Assembly: GCA_903876875.1 (NCBI GenBank)
Contig: CAIRBT010000185.1
Location: forward strand, 1-43,592
DNA: 43,592 nucleotides
Direction of reading: 5' to 3'
Origin: an uncultured Geobacteraceae bacterium
Lineage (GTDB): Bacteria > Desulfobacterota > Desulfuromonadia > Geobacterales > Pseudopelobacteraceae
How positions within the stretch are numbered: position 1 is the stretch's first letter; each line of letters begins with the position of its first letter. The notes beneath the pieces were generated by a model, which had not been told where the DNA came from, made no database searches, and saw nothing but the letters and a program-made list of their open reading frames with translations. Position numbers and translations under genes: made by a program. Of the stretch, positions 8,295-17,486 are shown one piece after another.

Positions 8295-9464
8295 ATGAAA
8301 ACCAATGATCGCTTGGATCAGCAGTATCTGAAAACACTTACCGTGCTCTATGTGGAGGACGATTACGACACCAGAGCCCAGTTCACCGAATTTCTCAGCC
8401 GCCCGGTTGACACTCTGATTACCGCAGAAAACGGCGTGGAGGGGTTGGAGCTGTTTAAGAAGCACCGGCCCGATATTGTCATCACCGATGTCATGATGCC
8501 CCGCATGGATGGCCTGGCCATGGCCCGTGAGATTCATGAGATAAACCCCACGGTACCGATCATCGTCATAACAGCCTTTGAACAGAATGACTATCTGATA
8601 CGAGCGATCAACATTGGCATTGACAAATACGTTACCAAACCGGTCAACAGCTACCTGCTGTTTGCCGCCCTGCTGGAATCTGCCCATCGCCTGCGAGGGG
8701 AACAACAGCTTAAGATTCAGCACGAACGAGATATCCGGGATGCCCGTTCAAAGCAGAATGAAACCATTGCCGTGCTGGCCAGCGGCATGGTGCATGATTA
8801 TAACAACCTGATTCAGACCATTAGTGGCTATGCCTCACTGGCGTTGCAGAAACTGGAAGCGGGCAGTCCAAGCAGGGTCTACCTGGAAAAAGTGGGCACC
8901 TGCACCTCCGATGCCCACGAACTGGGTCGCTTGTTGAACATTATCGGCAATGGCTATACCGACAACACCCGAATCGGGCCGGTTGTCCCCTGTATTATCG
9001 ATACCATTGAGGGTGTGCTGCCGAGTGACACCGTTACCTTCAGCTATGAAGTTCCGGAGCAGCTGCCGGACATAGACTTTTCCGAGCCGTTGATGCAACT
9101 GATTTTTTCCGGATTGGCCATTAATGCGGTGGAAGCCATGCCCCAGGGGGGAACACTCACACTGGCCGTCCAGACGGTCACCCTGTGTCAGGCAGATATG
9201 GTGCCACTGAAGCCCGGTTCCTATATCCATCTCCGTCTCACCGACAGCGGAAGCGGCATTGCCCCGGAAATCCTCCCCACCATCTTTGATCCCTATTTCA
9301 GCACCAAAAAGAAGGGGGAGCAAAGGGGTGCAGGATTAAACCTCGCCCTCTGCCAGGTTGCCATTATGAAAAGCGGTGGCAGCATTACGGCAGAGTCGGT
9401 CGTGGGTGAAGGTACTACCATTCTGGTCTGGCTGCCGGTGCCTGAAGTGGCAGAGGAACAGTGA
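8295..9464 (+). CDS. Receiver-histidine kinase, paralogue of the REC-PAS protein
   Basis: The 389-residue protein has a receiver (E21/D22/D23, D65, K115), an H-box of the HDxNN type ('GMVHDYNNLIQTISGYA', His167) and a C-terminal ATPase domain with 'DSGSGI' and a slightly altered G2 loop ('GAGLNLAL'). Its receiver closely matches the one at 3568-4641, so the two genes probably arose by duplication; this copy keeps the catalytic domain that the other lacks. GGGAGGA precedes ATG 8295. A strong GC-rich hairpin with a T-run (9480-9526) follows the stop and may end the transcript. Confidence 0.9.
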   Translation: MKTNDRLDQQYLKTLTVLYVEDDYDTRAQFTEFLSRPVDTLITAENGVEGLELFKKHRPDIVITDVMMPRMDGLAMAREIHEINPTVPIIVITAFEQNDYLIRAINIGIDKYVTKPVNSYLLFAALLESAHRLRGEQQLKIQHERDIRDARSKQNETIAVLASGMVHDYNNLIQTISGYASLALQKLEAGSPSRVYLEKVGTCTSDAHELGRLLNIIGNGYTDNTRIGPVVPCIIDTIEGVLPSDTVTFSYEVPEQLPDIDFSEPLMQLIFSGLAINAVEAMPQGGTLTLAVQTVTLCQADMVPLKPGSYIHLRLTDSGSGIAPEILPTIFDPYFSTKKKGEQRGAGLNLALCQVAIMKSGGSITAESVVGEGTTILVWLPVPEVAEEQ

Positions 9465-9526: not shown

Positions 9527-9561
9527 CATGGGAGCCCACACACATCACAAGGAGACCTGCT

Positions 9562-10068
9562 ATGGCGATCAATGAAGCTGTTATTAAACAGTTACATCTG
9601 ACGGAAGATCAACTGACTGACTTTCTAATCGGTGACATAGCGACCGTTTTTGAAAACATGGCCGGCATCACCAATGTTTCCCGCCACCCAAAGATCATTG
9701 ATCCGATAAACGTGTTTACCGACTGCGTAACCGCGCTGGTCGGACTGGGGGGTGCCTGTAGCGGCCTTGTCAGCCTCCACCTGCCCGATCTACTGGCCCG
9801 GGAGTTCACCTCCGGGATGCTCGGCACACCGGTTACCGTCATAAACCGTGATGTGCATGACGCCATTGGTGAGCTTGCCCTCATGATTGCCGGATCTTTC
9901 AAATACCACCTCGGTAACCATGGCAACGACATCCATCTTTCAACACCGTCTACCTTTACCGGTGGAGAATATTTTTTCAACAACAGTGCCCCTGCGGAAT
10001 CACTTGCCATTCTCTGTGATGTCGGCGAGCAGTGGTTCATGGTAAGCATGACGCTCAAACAGCCATAG
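9562..10068 (+). CDS. CheX-like chemotaxis phosphatase-fold protein lacking the catalytic Asn
   Basis: This 168-residue protein fits the CheX/CheC-type fold, with 'VHDAIGELALMIAGSFKYHLG' (98-118) matching the family's helix. CheX enzymes dephosphorylate CheY-like receivers through an E-x-x-N pair; here E104 is present but the Asn position is Leu107. It may therefore bind phospho-receivers without hydrolysing them, or be inactive. ATG 9562 was chosen because AAGGAG lies eight bases upstream; the frame stays open to 9376, but that part overlaps the kinase gene and the hairpin. It sits among receiver-kinase genes, so a role with their receivers is likely but inferred. Confidence 0.75.
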   Translation: MAINEAVIKQLHLTEDQLTDFLIGDIATVFENMAGITNVSRHPKIIDPINVFTDCVTALVGLGGACSGLVSLHLPDLLAREFTSGMLGTPVTVINRDVHDAIGELALMIAGSFKYHLGNHGNDIHLSTPSTFTGGEYFFNNSAPAESLAILCDVGEQWFMVSMTLKQP

Positions 10069-10186: not shown

Positions 10187-10290
10187 GAAAAAACGGTAAA
10201 ATATGATCCGTTCAGACGGATTTGCAGCAGATTCCTCCTCATTCCGACAGGTTCCTAAACTCCTACACGCTCTGTCAGAATTTTGTGACA

Positions 10291-10319
10291 TTGTCGTTTG
10301 CTCTTTTTTCTGCTATGTA
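10291..10319 (+). promoter_or_regulatory. Possible sigma-70 promoter for the PAS kinase
   Basis: TTGTCG (10291-10296) and TATGTA (10314-10319) are 17 bases apart, about 37 bases before ATG 10356. Both boxes are only partial matches. Confidence 0.3.
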
Positions 10320-10355
10320 AAAAACTGTATCATTATTTTTATATCGGGAGTTCCT

Positions 10356-11489
10356 ATGGAAACCAGCTTTGCTCCGGCAGAACGAACTGACCAAACTGTT
10401 TTCGTCCGCCAGATTGAAAACATCAGTAACAGCCCGGTAATGAGTAAACTGCTGGAGGCCTCCTGCGGTTTACTGGTGGTACTTAACGAAGAGCGCCAGA
10501 TAGTCGGACTTAACGAAGCCTTCCTCAATTCCCTCGGCATGAAGGAGCCAGCAGCAATTTTAGGGTTGCGACTGGGGGAAACACTAGAGTGCGTTCACGC
10601 CTCCGGGGCGCCCAATGGCTGCGGCACGACCCCCCACTGTGCAACGTGCGGAGCCGCAATCGCCACAATGTCGGCCATCGTCGATGATGTGCCATCTGAA
10701 CAGACCTGCGCGCTTACCGCCGAGAGGGAGGGGAAAACAGTCGATCTGTTTCTGTCGGTGACAGCACGACCGTTCAAGGTTGATGGGAACCGGTGGATTC
10801 TTATATTCGCACAGGACATTACCCAACAACACTCACTTGCCTCCCTTGAAAACATTTTCTACCACGACTTTAATAATATCCTGATGGTACTTACCGGATG
10901 TGGGGACTTACTTTCGACCAAACAGCCGGATGATGCCCTCGCCTCCATGATTCAGAATACCGCACGGCGACTGAGTGCAGAAGTTCAACTGCAGCGTTTT
11001 TTGAGTAATAACAAGGGGGACAGCACCCTGCTGTCAAATAGCACGGCCGTATCCATGGCTGCCCTTCAGGAAGAGCTTGATCTTATTATTTTAAATCACC
11101 CGAGTGCCGATGGGAAAACGGTGGCACAGAGTTGGCCCGGCGAATCGTTCGAACTCCAGACCGACATTAACCTCCTCTCCCGTGTAGTGGGGAACATGCT
11201 GTTGAATGCGTTGGAATCGACCGACCTAGGTGGTACCGTCCGGCTCGTTACGTCATTACATGGCCGGGAAATCACGTGGGATGTCTGGAATGACACCTAT
11301 ATAACCCCCGACATTCAACGGAGGATTTTTCAGAAGCACTTCAGTACCAAGAATACTCTGGGGAGAGGTCTGGGTACCTATTCCATGAAATTGCTTGGCG
11401 AAAAGTACTTACCGGGCAATGTCAGCTTCACCTCAACCCCTGAAGGGGGAACCACGTTCCAATTCAGACACCCCCTAACTCATCACTGA
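10356..11489 (+). CDS. PAS histidine kinase with Cys-rich PAS domain and divergent ATPase site
   Basis: The 377-residue soluble protein has a PAS domain (about 25-160) that contains several cysteines in 'ECVHASG' and 'GCGTTPHCATCGA', a spacing that could hold a metal, cluster or haem or act as a redox switch (inference). An H-box 'FYHDFNNILMVLTG' follows. The ATPase domain has an N-box ('NMLLNALEST') and 'GRGLGTYSMKLL', but the usual DxGxG loop is replaced by 'WDVWNDTYI'. A variant of this loop occurs in a subgroup of deltaproteobacterial kinases, so activity may be retained. ATG 10356 was chosen because GGGAG precedes it; an upstream in-frame start at 10203 lies in non-coding-looking sequence. 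No receiver partner is fused to it. Confidence 0.82.
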   Translation: METSFAPAERTDQTVFVRQIENISNSPVMSKLLEASCGLLVVLNEERQIVGLNEAFLNSLGMKEPAAILGLRLGETLECVHASGAPNGCGTTPHCATCGAAIATMSAIVDDVPSEQTCALTAEREGKTVDLFLSVTARPFKVDGNRWILIFAQDITQQHSLASLENIFYHDFNNILMVLTGCGDLLSTKQPDDALASMIQNTARRLSAEVQLQRFLSNNKGDSTLLSNSTAVSMAALQEELDLIILNHPSADGKTVAQSWPGESFELQTDINLLSRVVGNMLLNALESTDLGGTVRLVTSLHGREITWDVWNDTYITPDIQRRIFQKHFSTKNTLGRGLGTYSMKLLGEKYLPGNVSFTSTPEGGTTFQFRHPLTHH

Positions 11490-11566: not shown

Positions 11567-11597
11567 TTGACATATCTCAGCATTAGTATAGTCTAAA
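11567..11597 (+). promoter_or_regulatory. Candidate promoter for the riboswitch operon
   Basis: A perfect -35 TTGACA (11567-11572) lies just upstream of the riboswitch. The best -10 is TCTAAA (11592-11597) at a long 19-base spacing; TAGTCT at 16 bases is an alternative. Transcription would start shortly before the aptamer's first stem at 11614. Confidence 0.4.
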
Positions 11598-11613
11598 TAT
11601 AATTTTATAATTT

Positions 11614-11704
11614 CCTCTACAGTTATTAAGAGCAAATTCAGGGTAACCTGAAGACGCAAAGCCACGAGTCCACTTTTTTGGATAGTCGGGTTGCCAAATA
11701 GAGG
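11614..11704 (+). ncRNA. GEMM-I riboswitch, probable 3',3'-cGAMP (GEMM-Ib) subtype
   Basis: All GEMM-I landmarks are visible. P1 pairs CCTCTA (11614-11619) with TAGAGG (11699-11704). GCAAA comes before P2, whose arms TTCAGG / CCTGAA (11637-11642, 11647-11652) carry a GTAA (GNRA) tetraloop. The tetraloop receptor GACGCAAAGCC (11653-11663) is exact, and P3 ends in TAGTCGGGTTGCC. Lining up with the Vibrio Vc2 aptamer, the strand before GCAAA reads A-G-A-G, so the base equivalent to G20 is A (11631). In Geobacter, G20A marks the variants that sense 3',3'-cGAMP rather than c-di-GMP. The ligand call is therefore inference from one base plus lineage; the riboswitch class itself is secure. Confidence 0.9.
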
Positions 11705-11745
11705 GTGTTTTCCACCCTTCTCTAGTTTCTATTGAAGGGTTTTTT
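11699..11745 (+). terminator. Riboswitch expression platform: intrinsic terminator and competing antiterminator
   Basis: The terminator pairs ACCCTTC (11714-11720) with GAAGGGT (11734-11740) and runs into six T's (11740-11745). A competing hairpin can form between TAGAGGGTG (11699-11707) and CACCC...TCTA (11713-11724). It uses both the 3' strand of aptamer P1 and the 5' arm of the terminator. On paper, ligand binding (P1 formed) blocks the competitor and favours termination, an OFF switch. Several Geobacter cGAMP switches are ON switches, so the direction needs a direct test. Confidence 0.75.
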
Positions 11746-11776
11746 GTATTTAAATCACACGATCGGAGGAAATGGT

Positions 11777-12067
11777 ATGACATTAACAAAAGCGGATATT
11801 GCGAAAACGATTCATGAGCGCATGGGATTTAAGGTAAAGGAATCACTGTCCCTGTGTGAAGAGGTTCTTGACATTATCAAAAGCACGCTGAAATCAGGTG
11901 AAGAGGTCAAGGTTCACCGTTTTGGCAAGTTCGAAATCAGACAGAAAATGGGACACAAGGGGAGAAACCCCCACACCGGCGAAACTGTCTCAATCACCTC
12001 ACGAAAAATTGTCACCTTCAAACTGAGCGGCCAGCTCAGAGAGCGTATCAACAGCGCTCAGAATTAA
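11777..12067 (+). CDS. ihfA: IHF alpha-like / HU-family DNA-bending protein
   Basis: The 96-residue protein matches the IHF/HU family over its full length. It has the N-terminal 'LTKADIAKTIHERMGF', the beta-arm region 'GRNPHTGETVSITSRKIVTF' including the Pro that intercalates into DNA, and a C-terminal helix. The 'SRKIVTFK' segment is closer to IHF alpha than to HU, but paralogues are common in this lineage. ATG 11777 follows GGAGGAAAT; an ATG five bases earlier hits a stop at once. It is the first gene behind the riboswitch and terminator, so it should be directly controlled by the cyclic dinucleotide. Control of a nucleoid protein could spread the signal to many promoters (inference). Confidence 0.88.
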   Translation: MTLTKADIAKTIHERMGFKVKESLSLCEEVLDIIKSTLKSGEEVKVHRFGKFEIRQKMGHKGRNPHTGETVSITSRKIVTFKLSGQLRERINSAQN

Positions 12068-12077
12068 TACCATCACC

Positions 12078-13121
12078 ATGGACTCAGCAAAGATCCTCAT
12101 CGTCGATGACGACGAAGTAAGCTGCGCTATTCTGAAGCATATGCTTTCTGAAAATTTCAGTAACTTCCTCACCGCAGCGAACGGGGTGGAAGGACTGAGC
12201 CAGATTACCCGGCATCCTGATATCGACTTGATACTTCTGGATCTTGAGATGCCGATAATGAACGGCAAAGCTCTGTTGAGCGAGATACGTAACACTGAAG
12301 AGTTACGGCACCTGTCGGTCATTGTCGTGGCGAGTAACCGGGATGATGCCATCCTGACCCTTGCCGCCGGTGCGGACGACTTCATCACCAAACCCTATGA
12401 CCGGGTTGAGATGACGTTACGCATCAAGAATCATCTGCAAAAGAACATCGACTCCCAAAAACGCATACGGGCGGAACACCTCCTCCGAAGGAGTGAAGAG
12501 AATCTGCTGCGGGCTCAATCGGTTGCCCAGACCGGTAGCTGGAGCCTGGATCTCAGTACCGGCGACATGGAATGGTCAGCCGAGGCACGTCACCTCTGCG
12601 GCATTGACCAGAAAAAACCATTTTCAATAGATGACTATTTTTGCCAGTTGCATCCGGAGGATCGGGCCCTGGTTACTGCGGCATGGCACGAGATTTTGCA
12701 CAATGGCACCTCCTCTGATATGGTCTATCGCCTCAAAGTCAACGGCAGTTTCCTCTGGATCAGGGGGAGGGCTGAGGTTGAGCGAAATGACCTGGGGAAA
12801 CCACTGTGGGTCACCGGAACGGTTCAGAACATTACCGCCCTCAGGGAAGCCGAAATTGAGTTACAAAAGCGTAATGATCTGGTAAAAGAGCAGAGAGATC
12901 AACTTGAGGATGCCCTTGCCCGTATCAGTCAACTTGAGGGGATCATACCGATCTGCTCGTACTGCAAGAAGATTAAGGATGATAAAAACAGCTGGTTGCA
13001 AGTTGAAGCCTATATCACCCGCCACTCGGAGGCGGTGTTTAGTCACGGTGTCTGCCCCGAGTGTGCTGAGGAACAACGAGCCATTATCCGTAACATGAGA
13101 ATCAATGGGGAAAGAGTATAA
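12078..13121 (+). CDS. Receiver-PAS protein with C-terminal four-cysteine module
   Basis: The 347-residue protein has a receiver (D10-D12, D55, K105), a linker helix, a PAS_3-like domain (about 145-258), a short coiled coil, and a conserved C-terminal module with C293-x-x-C296 and C326-x-x-C329 ('PICSYCKKIKDD', 'SHGVCPECAEE'). I know this module as a recurrent ending of PAS/REC proteins in deltaproteobacteria; the cysteine pairs suggest metal binding, but its function is not established. The gene begins 10 bases after ihfA, and its stop TAA shares a base with the next ATG. It has a weak ribosome binding site, so translation may depend on coupling. Confidence 0.85.
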   Translation: MDSAKILIVDDDEVSCAILKHMLSENFSNFLTAANGVEGLSQITRHPDIDLILLDLEMPIMNGKALLSEIRNTEELRHLSVIVVASNRDDAILTLAAGADDFITKPYDRVEMTLRIKNHLQKNIDSQKRIRAEHLLRRSEENLLRAQSVAQTGSWSLDLSTGDMEWSAEARHLCGIDQKKPFSIDDYFCQLHPEDRALVTAAWHEILHNGTSSDMVYRLKVNGSFLWIRGRAEVERNDLGKPLWVTGTVQNITALREAEIELQKRNDLVKEQRDQLEDALARISQLEGIIPICSYCKKIKDDKNSWLQVEAYITRHSEAVFSHGVCPECAEEQRAIIRNMRINGERV

Positions 13122-14113
13122 TGATTCTATTTGTTGATGACGAAGAACAGGTACTCCTGTCACTGAAACGTCTGTTCAGGAGTGAACCCTATGAGGTGGT
13201 ATTTGCCACATCAGGGAGCAGTGCCCTCGAACTGTTGGCGGCTCGTGGTGAAGAAGTTGAGGTCATAGTTACGGATCAGCGTATGCCCAACATGACCGGC
13301 ACTGAGTTTTTGATTCGCTCCCAGGAATTTGCCCCCACTGCAGTGCGCATGGTAATGACCGGTTATTCTGACATACAGGTGACCATTGACGCCATCAACA
13401 AAGGAGGGGCCACCCGCTATATCAGCAAACCATGGGATAATCAGGAAATGCTCGGTTATGTGCAGGAAGCACTCAGCAGATTTCGTCACGATCTCAAACT
13501 GCGTACCGATCTCCAGAAAGTTCATGAACAGCAGCGACATCATCAGCAACATTTCAGTGCCCTGTTTGGTGCTCTGGCCGGTTTTATCGACTTGAGTCTG
13601 CCGGAAGCACGACGCCATGCAGCCATAACAGCGAAACTGTCGGTCGGTATTGGGGTAAGTCTTGGCCTCTCGCCAACCGATCTGGAAAAAATAAGAATGG
13701 CCGCCCTACTCCATGACATTGGCCTGAATACCCTTTCCAGCGATGTAGCCGAAATGGATCCCCTCTGCATGACCGATTCCCAGTTTGCCCTGTACCGTTC
13801 CCATCCGGTCATGGGACAGAGCATGATCGAAACCGTCGAGCATCTGCATGATATTGCGCTGATTGTGCGGCATCACCATGAATATTTCGACGGCAGCGGT
13901 TTTCCCGACGGCCTGGCCGCTGAAGCCATTCCCCAAGGATCAGCCATCATATGCCTTGCTGATACCCTTGAGAGTGAAATGGAAATAAGTGGTGACAAAG
14001 TGCCCTTGCAAAAAGTGCTGGAGAAAGTGAGTGCCCGGAGCGGCACCGAATTTGATCCCCAGTTGATCCCCCACATGGTGAGGGTGGCTGAAGATATGTA
14101 CCGTGGCAGGTGA
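13121..14113 (+). CDS. Response regulator with HD-GYP phosphodiesterase domain (RpfG-type)
   Basis: The 330-residue protein has a receiver (D6/D7, D52, K103), a helical linker and an HD-GYP domain (about 150-325). The motifs are 'LLHDIG' (H198-D199), H228, and 'HHEYFDGSGFPDG' (252-264), where Phe replaces the Tyr of GYP, a tolerated variant. HD-GYP proteins hydrolyse c-di-GMP, and some Vibrio members cleave 3',3'-cGAMP. The ATG at 13121 overlaps the preceding stop by one base, so the genes are translationally coupled. Being downstream of a cyclic-dinucleotide riboswitch, it could close a feedback loop by destroying the ligand (inference). The metal ligands I can identify are present, although the region after 'LAD' is shorter than usual. 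Confidence 0.88.
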   Translation: MILFVDDEEQVLLSLKRLFRSEPYEVVFATSGSSALELLAARGEEVEVIVTDQRMPNMTGTEFLIRSQEFAPTAVRMVMTGYSDIQVTIDAINKGGATRYISKPWDNQEMLGYVQEALSRFRHDLKLRTDLQKVHEQQRHHQQHFSALFGALAGFIDLSLPEARRHAAITAKLSVGIGVSLGLSPTDLEKIRMAALLHDIGLNTLSSDVAEMDPLCMTDSQFALYRSHPVMGQSMIETVEHLHDIALIVRHHHEYFDGSGFPDGLAAEAIPQGSAIICLADTLESEMEISGDKVPLQKVLEKVSARSGTEFDPQLIPHMVRVAEDMYRGR

Positions 14114-15542
14114 AAACTTCGCATACGACCTGGTACAGGCCGGTTACACCCTCCGCCTGGATTTATTAGACAACGCGACGCTATGTACGGCACGTTACAC
14201 ACCGGCCAAAAGCGGAGCCGCCATGACCGAGGCGGCACTCCGGGATTTTTTGGCAAGCCATGCCATAACCGAAAACATTAATGAAGAGGGCATTACATTA
14301 GTGATGGAGGCCGCCTCGGAGAACAAGCCGGTCTCAGGAGTCGTCCTGGCACTGGGGTTGGTCATGGATCCGGGTATTGACGGCTGGTTTGAAATGCTTG
14401 TCCCCGATGCCCTGAAAGATGAAGATGATGAAGAAGATATTAGTGAACCCCACCATTACACCCGCGTTAATTTCAAAAAAATACAGACATTCCAGAATGT
14501 TGAAGCCGAAGACCCCATTGGTATCATCCACCCCTGCACTGACGGTATGGACGGCCTAACCGTTCAGTCGAAAATTATCCCTGCCATTCCGGGCAAACCG
14601 CTCCATGTCCGGTACGGCAAAGGGATCTTTATGGGAGAAGATGAGAAAACCCTGTATGCTAACCGCTCCGGACGAGTATTCAACTCAACGGACGGTCTCT
14701 CGGTGGAAAATGTCTATGTGGTGAAGGGAAATGTTGACTACCATGTGGGGAACATCAGATATAACGGCCTCGTGGAGATAACCGGCGACGTGTTAGACGG
14801 CTTTGAGGTGTTTGCCTCGAAGGGTATCAAAGTAAAAGGAATTGTCGGAAACTGTCAGATTTATTCAAAAGGCAATATCGATATTAACGGCATGAGCGGT
14901 GCCGGCATTGGAAAGATCACCTGTGGCGGAGATCTAACACTAAAGTATTGTAATGATACCACCATAATCTGCACAGGAAATATTACCGCCCAGATTGAAA
15001 TACGGAGTAGCAAGGTCAATTGTCTCGGCTCGTTAACCATCACCAAAGGAGCCTTCTGCGGTGGGACCTGCATCGTACTGGCAGGTATGGAAGCCATGGT
15101 ACTCGGCTCTAAAACATCACTGCCAACCACGGTCATTGTCGGCGTACACTATGCTGATTTTGACCAGATTGAGCTACTGAACCGCGCACTGCTCGATTTA
15201 AATGAAAAGTTTGCCGCAACGCCCCCCAATCAGCGGGATCTCATGGCCTTCATGACAGAACGAAACCGGCTTTCCACACTGCTGCAGGAGGTTAACAGTC
15301 ACCAGTACGACAACGCCAACCCCAAGGTCAATGTCCATAAGATTGTCTATGAAAACGTTCGCCTTAAGTTTGACCGGGTGGCTTCTGTCACCACCGAAGA
15401 AATTAAAGGGCCAGCGACCCTCATCAGTAATCTTGACGAGTCGGAACTGCTGCAGCTACAGATGAGCGGCTTGCCGATCACGGCTAACCAATTGAAGGAA
15501 GCTCTTATTCGGGAGCAGAAGGAAAAATTGGAAGAGAGTTAG
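14103..15542 (+). CDS. FapA (DUF342) family protein
   Basis: The 479-residue protein matches FapA/DUF342, a family with a central right-handed beta-helix made of repeated 'GNI..G.V.ITGDV..GF.V.A.G.I.V.G' strands (about 210-340) and a C-terminal coiled coil (about 365-410). In some bacteria FapA affects flagellar assembly or polar localisation of flagellar proteins; its biochemical role is unsettled. The start is GTG 14103, inside the end of the HD-GYP gene (11-base overlap), so it belongs to the riboswitch operon. No flagellar structural gene is visible nearby. The gene ends five bases before the stop of a convergent small gene, with no clear terminator between them. Confidence 0.82.
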   Translation: MAGENFAYDLVQAGYTLRLDLLDNATLCTARYTPAKSGAAMTEAALRDFLASHAITENINEEGITLVMEAASENKPVSGVVLALGLVMDPGIDGWFEMLVPDALKDEDDEEDISEPHHYTRVNFKKIQTFQNVEAEDPIGIIHPCTDGMDGLTVQSKIIPAIPGKPLHVRYGKGIFMGEDEKTLYANRSGRVFNSTDGLSVENVYVVKGNVDYHVGNIRYNGLVEITGDVLDGFEVFASKGIKVKGIVGNCQIYSKGNIDINGMSGAGIGKITCGGDLTLKYCNDTTIICTGNITAQIEIRSSKVNCLGSLTITKGAFCGGTCIVLAGMEAMVLGSKTSLPTTVIVGVHYADFDQIELLNRALLDLNEKFAATPPNQRDLMAFMTERNRLSTLLQEVNSHQYDNANPKVNVHKIVYENVRLKFDRVASVTTEEIKGPATLISNLDESELLQLQMSGLPITANQLKEALIREQKEKLEES

Positions 15543-15547
15543 GCTTA

Positions 15548-15862
15548 TCAGGCGTTGAGATCATGAAACAGCGAGGTAACCGTGTGGGATAAGGCGGCAT
15601 AGGCTTTGTACAGGGCGTTTTTTTCGTCATAGGTAACGGGAAGTGATGGAGGTTTAATTTCAAAAGTCGGCTGGTCACCACGTGCAGTGTAATCGGACGA
15701 GAGGCTCACCGTATCCCCGGTAGCGGCACTATTCGCTGTTTTAACCTGATTCCTGGCCTGCTCAGCTGCCAGCACAGGACGTTGAACCTGATCGGACGAA
15801 CTCCCCTGTTTTAGGCTTGTTGACAGATCATTCACATTGCTGGAAGTAACACCCTGAACCAT
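15548..15862 (-). CDS. Small hypothetical protein
   Basis: I do not recognise this 104-residue protein. The first two thirds are rich in Ser, Gln, Asn and Thr and look disordered; 'GDTVSLSSDY' in the middle recalls short motifs seen in flagellum-associated small proteins, but this is weak. The last 35 residues are likely helical ('EKNALYKAYAALSHTVTSLF'). ATG 15862 has GGAG nine bases upstream; a GTG seven codons earlier has no better site. A TATAAT on the minus strand (15890-15885) may be its -10. The gene is convergent with fapA and divergent from the MgtE_N/CBS gene. Confidence 0.6.
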   Translation of the reverse strand: MVQGVTSSNVNDLSTSLKQGSSSDQVQRPVLAAEQARNQVKTANSAATGDTVSLSSDYTARGDQPTFEIKPPSLPVTYDEKNALYKAYAALSHTVTSLFHDLNA

Positions 15863-16070
15863 GCCGTTGCACTCCGTCACCACGATTATATATTTTTCAT
15901 TAGTAAGAAGTTTACACGATAGGAATGAACGTCTATCACAGTAAAATCAGTATTTCAAGGATAATTTTTCACGGAATATGCTCTCCGCCCCGCCACGAAA
16001 CCGCTTCTTTTATCAACGAGTAACGATTCATACTATATATTGTGGACAAAGAGACAACAACCACAACTAC

Positions 16071-16203
16071 TATAATAATGGGCACAGTTTTTTTATTCTC
16101 GCACCATGCATATTCTTATATAGGAGGTTGCACAGACCAGCCGAACGTGCTATAAAATTGTGTCATATCTGTGAGACCCTTACTTCCCGACGGGGTCTTT
16201 TTT
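16071..16203 (+). promoter_or_regulatory. Structured leader with attenuator-like terminator before the metal-transport pair
   Basis: The 361-base gap 15863-16223 holds a -10-like TATAAT (16071-16076) and a leader ending in an intrinsic terminator. AGACCC (16174-16179) pairs with GGGTCT (16193-16198), followed by six T's (16198-16203), 20 bases before the start codon. The nearest upstream gene points the other way, so only transcripts of the downstream operon meet this terminator. CACAGA (16131-16136) can pair with TCTGTG (16168-16173), and AGACC at 16134-16138 can pair with the terminator's 3' arm, so alternative folds exist. The leader matches no riboswitch class I know; a metal-sensing role is inference from the genes. 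Confidence 0.5.
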
Positions 16204-16223
16204 ATTGCGTGAAAGACGAGCCT

Positions 16224-17486
16224 ATGAATATTGAAATCAACGAAATATATCTCAGCTCCGTCATTGGCCGCTCGGTGATCAACTTCAAGGGTGAGCAGAT
16301 CGGCATCCTACGGGATCTCATCATGGTTCCGGGGGAAGTTTTTCCCGAAGTATCCCATATCGTCATCAAATGCCGTAAAGGGCTCAAAACCCTCCCCTGG
16401 GGAGAAGTCTCCCTCTTCACCCATGTGGTAATCTCCACCGGCAGTAATACCCCCCAGCAGCTGCACACCTTTGACCCGGACGCAAAGGACATTCTTGTCA
16501 AACGGGATCTGCTCGACAAACAGATTGTCGATGTTGATGGCGCCAAGGTTGTCCGGGTAAATGATATCAAACTGGGCAACCTGAATCATAAACTCTGTAT
16601 TTTCTCCGTTGATATCGGCTTTCGCGGCCTGCTGAGACGCCTTGGATACGAGCGTTTTGGCGAACAGGTTGCCACCCTGCTCAAACGGAACATCCCCCAC
16701 AATGAAATCAGCTGGGAATATGTCCAACCCCTGGAAGCCAACTCTTCAAAACTGGCTCTCAACATCGCCCGGGATCAGATGAACGAACTGCATCCTGCCG
16801 ACCTTGCCGATATTCTGGAGAATATCCCGATCCAGAGCATCCGCACCGTGCTTGATTCCATTGATGTTGAAACCACCGGTGAAGCCCTCTACGAGCTGGA
16901 ATCGGACATGAGAAATCTGGTTATCAGCCAGCTCGATAACGAGCAGATGACCGACATTCTCGAAGAGATGGAACCGGATGAAGCCGCCGATGTTTTGAGC
17001 GACCTGCCAGAGCAGAAAGCCCAGGAACTACTGGACATGATGGACCAGGAAGATGCCGAGGATATCCAGGAACTGCTGGAGCATGAAGAGGATTCGGCCG
17101 GTGGTCTCATGAACCCGGACTACCTGCGGCTCACCTCCGAAATCACCGTGGGACGGGCTCTGGAAATCCTCAAGGAGTCTGCCGACGAGATAGAAACCAT
17201 CTTTTACGGCTATGTGGTGTCGGCCGATGACCAGCTTGAGGGCATCGTGTCACTCAAAGGGTTGATTATGAACCCGCCAGAAACCCTCTTGACCGACATC
17301 ATGGAAGAAAATATCAAGTACGTCCGGATCGATGCCGAACCGGAGGATATGCTGGAAACCTTAACCAAGTATGACCTGATTGCCGTTCCGGTTCTTGATC
17401 TGGACGACAAAATGGCGGGCATCGTCACCGTTGACGACGTACTCGCCCATTATCTGCCACAAATCATAAAAATCAAGCGACGTTAG
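16224..17486 (+). CDS. Soluble PRC-barrel / MgtE N-domain / CBS-pair protein
   Basis: The 420-residue protein has no membrane segment. It begins with two PRC-barrel-like units (about 10-75 and 85-165), then the MgtE intracellular N domain (about 180-285, with repeated 'D.AADVLSDLPEQKAQELL' helices and 'EDSAGGLMNPDY') and a pair of CBS domains (about 290-410). In the magnesium channel MgtE, the N and CBS domains sense magnesium and gate the pore; here they stand alone. The next gene is an Nramp-type transporter 11 bases downstream, so a regulatory partnership is likely. ATG 16224 was chosen because MNIEINEI starts the conserved fold; the frame stays open to 15978, but that stretch includes the terminator. 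Confidence 0.85.
   Translation: MNIEINEIYLSSVIGRSVINFKGEQIGILRDLIMVPGEVFPEVSHIVIKCRKGLKTLPWGEVSLFTHVVISTGSNTPQQLHTFDPDAKDILVKRDLLDKQIVDVDGAKVVRVNDIKLGNLNHKLCIFSVDIGFRGLLRRLGYERFGEQVATLLKRNIPHNEISWEYVQPLEANSSKLALNIARDQMNELHPADLADILENIPIQSIRTVLDSIDVETTGEALYELESDMRNLVISQLDNEQMTDILEEMEPDEAADVLSDLPEQKAQELLDMMDQEDAEDIQELLEHEEDSAGGLMNPDYLRLTSEITVGRALEILKESADEIETIFYGYVVSADDQLEGIVSLKGLIMNPPETLLTDIMEENIKYVRIDAEPEDMLETLTKYDLIAVPVLDLDDKMAGIVTVDDVLAHYLPQIIKIKRR

Follow-up and report, generated by a model that had tools for sequence, protein, structure and literature searches.

We examined a stretch of 43,592 nucleotides, referred to here as the window (contig CAIRBT010000185.1, positions 1 to 43,592 of the forward strand, assembly GCA_903876875.1), from an uncultured Geobacteraceae bacterium assigned to the Pseudopelobacteraceae (Geobacterales). 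Analysis of positions 11,567 to 15,542 revealed a small operon of four genes behind a GEMM-I riboswitch, which recurs in a second species represented by a Geobacteraceae metagenome-assembled genome (G108). The operon is real and conserved, stands under a cyclic-dinucleotide riboswitch, and combines known parts in a new arrangement. Its features are as follows.

11567-11572, plus strand: TTGACA, a candidate -35 element found by eye and absent from the consensus promoter scan (TTGACT at this place in G108)
11621-11698, plus strand: GEMM-I riboswitch RF01051 (cmscan, 65.1 bits against a gathering threshold of 35, E 1.2e-10)
11777-12067, plus strand: IHF-alpha-like DNA-bending protein, 96 aa (PF00216, 90.2 bits)
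12078-13121, plus strand: REC-PAS_3-Cys4 protein, 347 aa (REC and PAS by Pfam, Cys4 by module alignment)
12954-13064, plus strand: Cys4 module of that protein, CSYC...CPEC (CxxC...FSHGxCPxC; module alignment)
13121-14113, plus strand: REC-HD-GYP (REC-HD_5) protein, 330 aa, with HDIGL and HHHEYFDGSGFP and without R..Y[RK] (Pfam HD_5, 89.3 bits)
14103-15542, plus strand: FapA, 479 aa, GTG start, with FapA_N (PF20250) and the FapA beta-solenoid (PF03961) (Pfam, 92.4 and 151.6 bits)

The riboswitch was the sole Rfam match at the gathering threshold within the whole window. Open reading frame coordinates place a 10-base gap between the IHF-like and REC-PAS-Cys4 genes, a 1-base overlap between REC-PAS-Cys4 and REC-HD-GYP, and an 11-base overlap between REC-HD-GYP and FapA. 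A preliminary description of this DNA had reported one riboswitch ahead of four co-oriented genes with this spacing and had named the IHF, REC-PAS-Cys4, HD-GYP and FapA domains; the layout was borne out by the open reading frames and cmscan, and the domain calls by Pfam and alignment. The comparison set comprised 141 genomes of the order, own genome included, mostly draft assemblies in which absences are soft. The full unit with its riboswitch was present in 2 of the 141, the own genome and G108, a count judged from homolog positions rather than from locus-by-locus reading. The search of Geobacterales genomes suggested in the preliminary description thus recovered the gene order in G108 but not across the order, and a gene order found in this genome alone, which that description held would refute the circuit, was avoided just barely. 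An operon common to the whole order is ruled out. G108 keeps the gene order, and the last two genes apparently overlap by 11 bases there as well, as judged from match ends. Protein identity between the two genomes was 92.7% for the IHF-like protein, 79.2% for REC-PAS-Cys4, 84.2% for REC-HD-GYP and 80.3% for FapA, and the ratios of nonsynonymous to synonymous substitution rates (0.05, 0.12, 0.09 and 0.10, respectively) indicate that all four genes are under purifying selection. From spacing and conservation we infer that the four genes form a single transcript. Among the titles and abstracts listed when open-licence papers were searched for riboswitches or response regulators in connection with IHF, HU, HD-GYP or FapA, none describes this unit.

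The window aptamer matched the pattern AGCAAA...GACGCAAARCY at 11631 and carries A at position 20 (11631), G at position 21 (11632) and the conserved C at position 92 (11694), in what we take to be Vc2 numbering; the G108 operon aptamer is likewise A20. Folding of the leader revealed four further elements around it.

11613-11619, plus strand: P1 5' arm UCCUCUA (folding; identical letters in G108)
11699-11705, plus strand: P1 3' arm UAGAGGG (folding; its GGG is common to the antiterminator)
11703-11717, plus strand: antiterminator hairpin GGGUG/CACCC (folding; same stem and different loop in G108)
11715-11745, plus strand: intrinsic terminator CCCUUC/GAAGGG followed by UUUUUU (folding; CCUUC/GAAGG and U7 in G108)

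In the folded window leader P1 and the terminator have no bases in common, and the antiterminator overlaps the P1 arm by 3 bases and the terminator arm by 3 (3 and 2 in G108). As long as closure of the terminator is impossible, the P1 fold is less stable than the antiterminator fold by 1.8-5.1 kcal/mol (2.2-3.8 kcal/mol in G108), and a two-state model with ligand bonuses of 5 and 8 kcal/mol gave 53 and 99% P1. The predicted outcome is an OFF switch, in which P1 stabilised by ligand is compatible with the terminator and incompatible with the antiterminator. Cyclic-dinucleotide control had been proposed before without a sign; the folding supplies one, predicting ligand-induced termination and hence repression. 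In a heuristic layout test of 16 leaders from the own genome and G108, the three-way OFF layout was obtained for 8, including both operon leaders (the window and G108 C70); the others were own contigs C102, C142, C56 and C33 and G108 contigs C85 and C161, with own C142 and G108 C85 resting on 4 pairs only. The predicted layout resembles that of Cd1, the c-di-GMP-I riboswitch of Clostridioides difficile, an OFF switch whose aptamer and terminator can coexist and compete with the antiterminator (PMC9262584), but the window aptamer has A20 and lies before a different gene set in a different phylum. The Geobacter GEMM-Ib switches (Gs1761, pilM) share the RF01051 fold, A20, C92 and the bacterial order with the window. 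They differ in that the window has G21 instead of C21 and a Cd1-like terminator layout with predicted ligand OFF, whereas Geobacter pilM is described as ON (PMC9262584); in G. sulfurreducens, deletion of gacA lowers expression of genes behind GEMM-Ib, again the ON sign (PMC6456294).

With moderate confidence, we read the locus as a four-gene A20 GEMM-I unit forming a ligand-repressed two-component output module, the ligand being left open. Several observations weigh against this reading. The energies were computed with a nearest-neighbour model that takes no account of aptamer tertiary contacts, and a ligand bonus of 3 kcal/mol yields just 4% P1 in the two-state model. The full-length, ligand-free minimum is already P1 plus terminator, and for this reason read-through (the ON state) would hinge on co-transcriptional kinetics. 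The OFF layout was not obtained in 8 of the 16 leaders in the heuristic test: four gave a formal ON layout, with the assigned terminator overlapping the P1 arm (own C107 and C155, G108 C50 and C71), although separate folds mark the own C107 call as a misreading of the antiterminator as terminator, and G108 C50 and C71 have weak U tails; two gave neither layout (G108 C10 and C84) and two had no terminator (own C35, G108 C148). In the leader on G108 C10, which precedes a second cassette described below, a P1-strand hairpin coexists with the terminator in a separate folding. By eye, J1/2 of the window aptamer is apparently 2-3 bases longer than in sister aptamers, which might weaken ligand binding. 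No good -10 hexamer stands 16-18 bases past TTGACA, AGTCTA at 17 bases being poor, and a promoter-like site with 10/12 matches lies directly 5' of the HD-GYP gene (plus strand, 13095-13122), a possible internal promoter. Finally, the unit is carried by two genomes only.

The nature of the ligand was assessed from aptamer residues and from the cyclases of the two genomes. The window aptamer has A at 11631 where selectivity for cyclic diguanylate (c-di-GMP) calls for G20. It scored 61.4 bits against a gathering threshold of 65.9 for the c-di-GMP-I-UAU variant (RF03168), whose consensus has U where the window has A20 and C92, and this assignment was rejected. A standard c-di-GMP riboswitch with tolerance for A20, repressing the operon at high c-di-GMP and leaving no role for cyclic GMP-AMP (cGAMP), is compatible with the ligand-repressed module, shares its mechanism and differs in the ligand alone; we consider it possible but somewhat unlikely. 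Position 348 is Asp in 12 of the 13 own GGDEF domains, the P1/antiterminator/terminator layout is the same in the own G20 leader C102, and G21-C46 is as in G20 aptamers, G21 being present in all 8 own GEMM-I aptamers. Against such a switch, A20 is conserved in G108 and occurs in 5 of the 8 own aptamers (2 are G20 and 1 is C20), whereas G20 is commoner order-wide: the G20/G21 pattern occurred in 90 of 141 genomes (reversed-pattern control 7) and the A20/G21 pattern in 29, with 51 matches (control 6). The A20 count includes a few matches that resemble chance and have no P2 stem. The other own GEMM-I leaders precede, by eye, a chemoreceptor with a CxxCH motif together with CheX (the latter a 43% match), secreted repeat proteins, a two-partner secretion-like protein, STAS-like proteins and a secreted papain-like protein; one leader stops at a contig edge.

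The preliminary description had called the operon cGAMP-controlled and its riboswitch GEMM-Ib. Half of this holds, since the window has A20 together with C92, but G at 11632 replaces C21, the fold model computes ligand-induced termination instead of an ON response, and the own genome, 95.84% complete, shows no Ser348-type Hypr cyclase among its 13 GGDEF domains (12 Asp, 1 Thr). The same was true of G108, with 21 Asp, 1 Thr and no Ser among 22 parsable of 25 GGDEF domains. We take A14-C15 of structure 4YAZ to correspond to positions 20 and 21. In a class I GEMM aptamer, the G20A change permits binding of cGAMP (PMC6274999, PMC7288161), and the solved Geobacter cGAMP switch, 4YAZ, carries A14-C15 (PMC7288161) as against G21 in the window. 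cGAMP is thus a possible ligand of the window riboswitch, not an established one. Both genomes have a Thr348 GGDEF cyclase that keeps the central Asp of GGDEF, in the own genome a membrane protein (membrane part by eye) on contig C144 (locus L152, 946-2037) with Thr at Hypr position 348. All 30 loci of this family that were fetched, among them those of the own genome and G108, keep Thr with GGDE[FY]. Natural Ser/Thr348 enzymes are reported with GGDE[FY] only and are reported to need the central Asp (PMC6456294). The family is a candidate for cGAMP synthesis. A cGAMP-selective OFF riboswitch (A20/G21), fed by the Thr348 Hypr cyclase family of many genomes of the order and controlling the REC-PAS-Cys4/REC-HD-GYP cassette, could also be imagined, and we regard it as quite unlikely. 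In three loci (L081, L083 and L086) whose genomes belong to a different family within the order, mixed tandem aptamers were observed: an A20+C21 core, the solved cGAMP type, precedes a same-strand G20 core by 185-249 bases.

We also examined the HD-GYP protein, for which degradation of cyclic dinucleotides had been suggested. The closest solved relatives of its HD-GYP domain were V-cGAP3 (best), PA4781 and PmGH. Residues E162, H166, H198, D199, H228, H252, H253 and D281, placed by structure comparison, align with what we take to be the metal ligands of PmGH and are all kept. The HDIGK and R..Y[RK] motifs are replaced by HDIGL and EISGDK. In the G108 ortholog two metal-ligand positions are changed, residue 162 to Ala and 281 to Asn; residue 281 is Gly in a paralog on own contig C33 and Asn in genome G085. 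The window protein thus retains the metal-ligand positions but has lost both substrate-contact motifs, and the ortholog departs from the metal site, so that a phosphodiesterase role appears doubtful. Because the motifs are lost and the ligands vary, yet the gene shows purifying selection, a regulatory or binding role fits better than catalysis. Over the whole REC-HD-GYP protein the best NCBIfam match was the NosR family (NF053512), at 305.1 bits against a cut-off of 400. The described NosR member has a degenerate HD-GYP (PMC12570481); unlike NosR, the window protein keeps the HD itself, and no FIST domain was found among 6 neighbouring proteins scanned. These results bear on a 3',3'-cGAMP circuit of GEMM-Ib type, with the ON sign of Geobacter and an HD-GYP that degrades the messenger as feedback. 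V-cGAP3 as best solved relative, A20 with C92, the 5 A20 aptamers among the own 8 and the Thr348 cyclase would all suit such a circuit, which G21, the lack of Ser348, the computed OFF topology and the loss of the HD-GYP motifs render distinctly improbable.

The pairing of REC-PAS-Cys4 with REC-HD-GYP recurs outside the window operon. When 76 genomes of the family were searched (E up to 1e-40, no more than 27 candidates per genome scored), four REC-PAS-Cys4 genes emerged among the scored candidates. The window has one and G108 has two; the fourth, in G110, is a 40% partial match within a 909-residue frame. All three full-length genes are the second gene of an A20 GEMM-I-led operon, with REC-HD-GYP as the next gene; two of the three operons are orthologous, leaving two independent events. 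The second operon of G108 (locus L307, G108:C10:73000-81000, minus strand) comprises a chemoreceptor, REC-PAS-Cys4 and REC-HD-GYP, with gene gaps of about 100 bases, and its REC-PAS-Cys4 protein is 59.8% identical to that of the window over 333 residues. The chemoreceptor, which takes the place of IHF, has MCPsignal, Mcp40H-20 sensor and CZB domains and a CxxCH motif. Mcp40H-type sensors are linked with haem. By reading, the HD-GYP protein of this operon has HDIGK, GSGYP and RCYR; with its catalytic motifs complete, messenger feedback is more likely there than in the window operon. The Cys4 module was found in 31 of 39 genomes, own included, with up to 14 copies per genome, ruling out that it is peculiar to this operon. 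It had no Pfam match over the cut-off, and 29 columns were invariant across 11 aligned copies picked from those fetched; with a stricter text pattern, 2.08 million bases of loci had yielded just 3 distinct copies.

The IHF-like protein falls within the IHF/HU superfamily, with its PF00216 match, its bending proline and a GRNP-TG loop that keeps Pro65, and scored 102.5 against a cut-off of 111 for NCBIfam IHF alpha (NF001401). Among the genomes compared, only G108 yielded a relative of more than 90% identity, the next best reaching 56% in the genome table and up to 57% in the alignment, and none of 8 scanned loci of other IHF relatives had a GEMM-I riboswitch. The situation is similar to that in Geobacter, where two species are listed with more than one IHF-alpha copy in the genome, i.e. 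extra ihfA copies (PMC2700814), but the window copy lies behind a riboswitch and is at most 57% identical to relatives outside G108. The last protein of the operon shares both Pfam domains with FapA (flagellar assembly protein A), and FapA matches occurred in 104 of 141 genomes; the window copy differs in standing near REC-kinases, CheX and HD-GYP. A riboswitch before FapA as a general rule was rejected, as GEMM-I was found in 1 of 33 scanned FapA loci besides the window, that of G108; some of the 33 end soon upstream of FapA, and L030, L031, L033-L038, L068, L069, L287, L288 and L294 were left out.

HD-GYP relatives of more than 60% identity were confined to the window gene, G108 and the own C33 paralog among the candidates scored, no more than 15 per genome. 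On own C33 (locus L039, 7131-8117 and 5690-7135) REC-HD-GYP and FapA form a paralogous pair without GEMM-I, and a T-box leads the next gene. That the riboswitch governs the IHF-like gene, perhaps with REC-PAS-Cys4, while HD-GYP and FapA form a separate unit is very improbable: HD-GYP and FapA do adjoin without IHF or an aptamer in own C33 and in G085, and the site at 13095-13122 could serve them, but the genes nearly abut or overlap, close spacing is kept in G108, a second A20 operon joins REC-PAS-Cys4 to REC-HD-GYP, and promoter-like sites are not above chance (7 on both strands in the consensus scan versus 5.6, standard deviation 2.3, in shuffles). The same scan gave 7 terminator-like sites versus 4.2 (standard deviation 2.3) in shuffles.

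The genes flanking the operon are the following.

8295-9464, plus strand: REC-HATPase kinase (Pfam)
9559-10068, plus strand: CheX phosphatase (Pfam)
10203-11489, plus strand: PAS-HATPase kinase (Pfam; PAS match below its cut-off)
15548-15883, minus strand: convergent gene for a 111-residue protein without a Pfam match, between FapA and mgtE (open reading frame; Pfam)

The three upstream genes probably form a separate unit and are possible phosphorylation partners of the operon products. Their REC-kinase/CheX/PAS-kinase order is kept in G108. In G085, HD-GYP and FapA have a REC protein, a CheX-PAS-kinase and, by eye, a chemoreceptor as neighbours. The gene immediately ahead of FapA in G082 and G110 is a homolog of the REC-kinase (58 and 63%). 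This kept association of kinase, CheX and FapA in G108, G085, G082 and G110 points to a phosphorelay module. Downstream, the 111-residue convergent protein has a 62% identical counterpart in G108. Next comes an mgtE-like gene (window 15890-16230), for which G108 shows an M-box riboswitch (129.5 bits; L041 4090-4255 compared); none was detected in the window by the Rfam scan, and the terminator-like stretch 5' of the gene is nearly identical to that of G108.

Taken together, the ligand-repressed module would operate as follows. When little ligand is present, the antiterminator would take the P1 3' strand UAGAGGG and hold the 5' arm of the terminator, and transcription would continue. Binding of the ligand would lock P1, block the antiterminator and let the terminator form, silencing the operon. 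The neighbouring kinases would phosphorylate REC-PAS-Cys4 and REC-HD-GYP, with CheX damping this input. The HD-GYP protein would probably act mainly through its receiver and a substrate- or partner-binding HD-GYP fold, with hydrolysis weak at most; FapA would serve as a partner in multimeric form, and at low messenger DNA architecture would be adjusted by the IHF-like protein.

The predicted repression is the point most worth testing. The A20/G21 aptamers raise the testable question of whether A20 alone is enough for natural cGAMP selectivity, and the Thr348 cyclases that of whether Thr-type GGDEF enzymes make cGAMP. Should a cGAMP-selective OFF switch control the cassette, and should the leader on G108 C10 likewise be OFF, low messenger would raise a messenger-lowering enzyme, and the second G108 operon would be a positive-feedback two-state switch, opposite to the ON logic of cGAMP in Geobacter. 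If the predicted repression is right, a single aptamer family would exert control of opposite sign in neighbouring families within one bacterial order, and the targets of these riboswitches would include two-component machinery and a DNA-bending protein.

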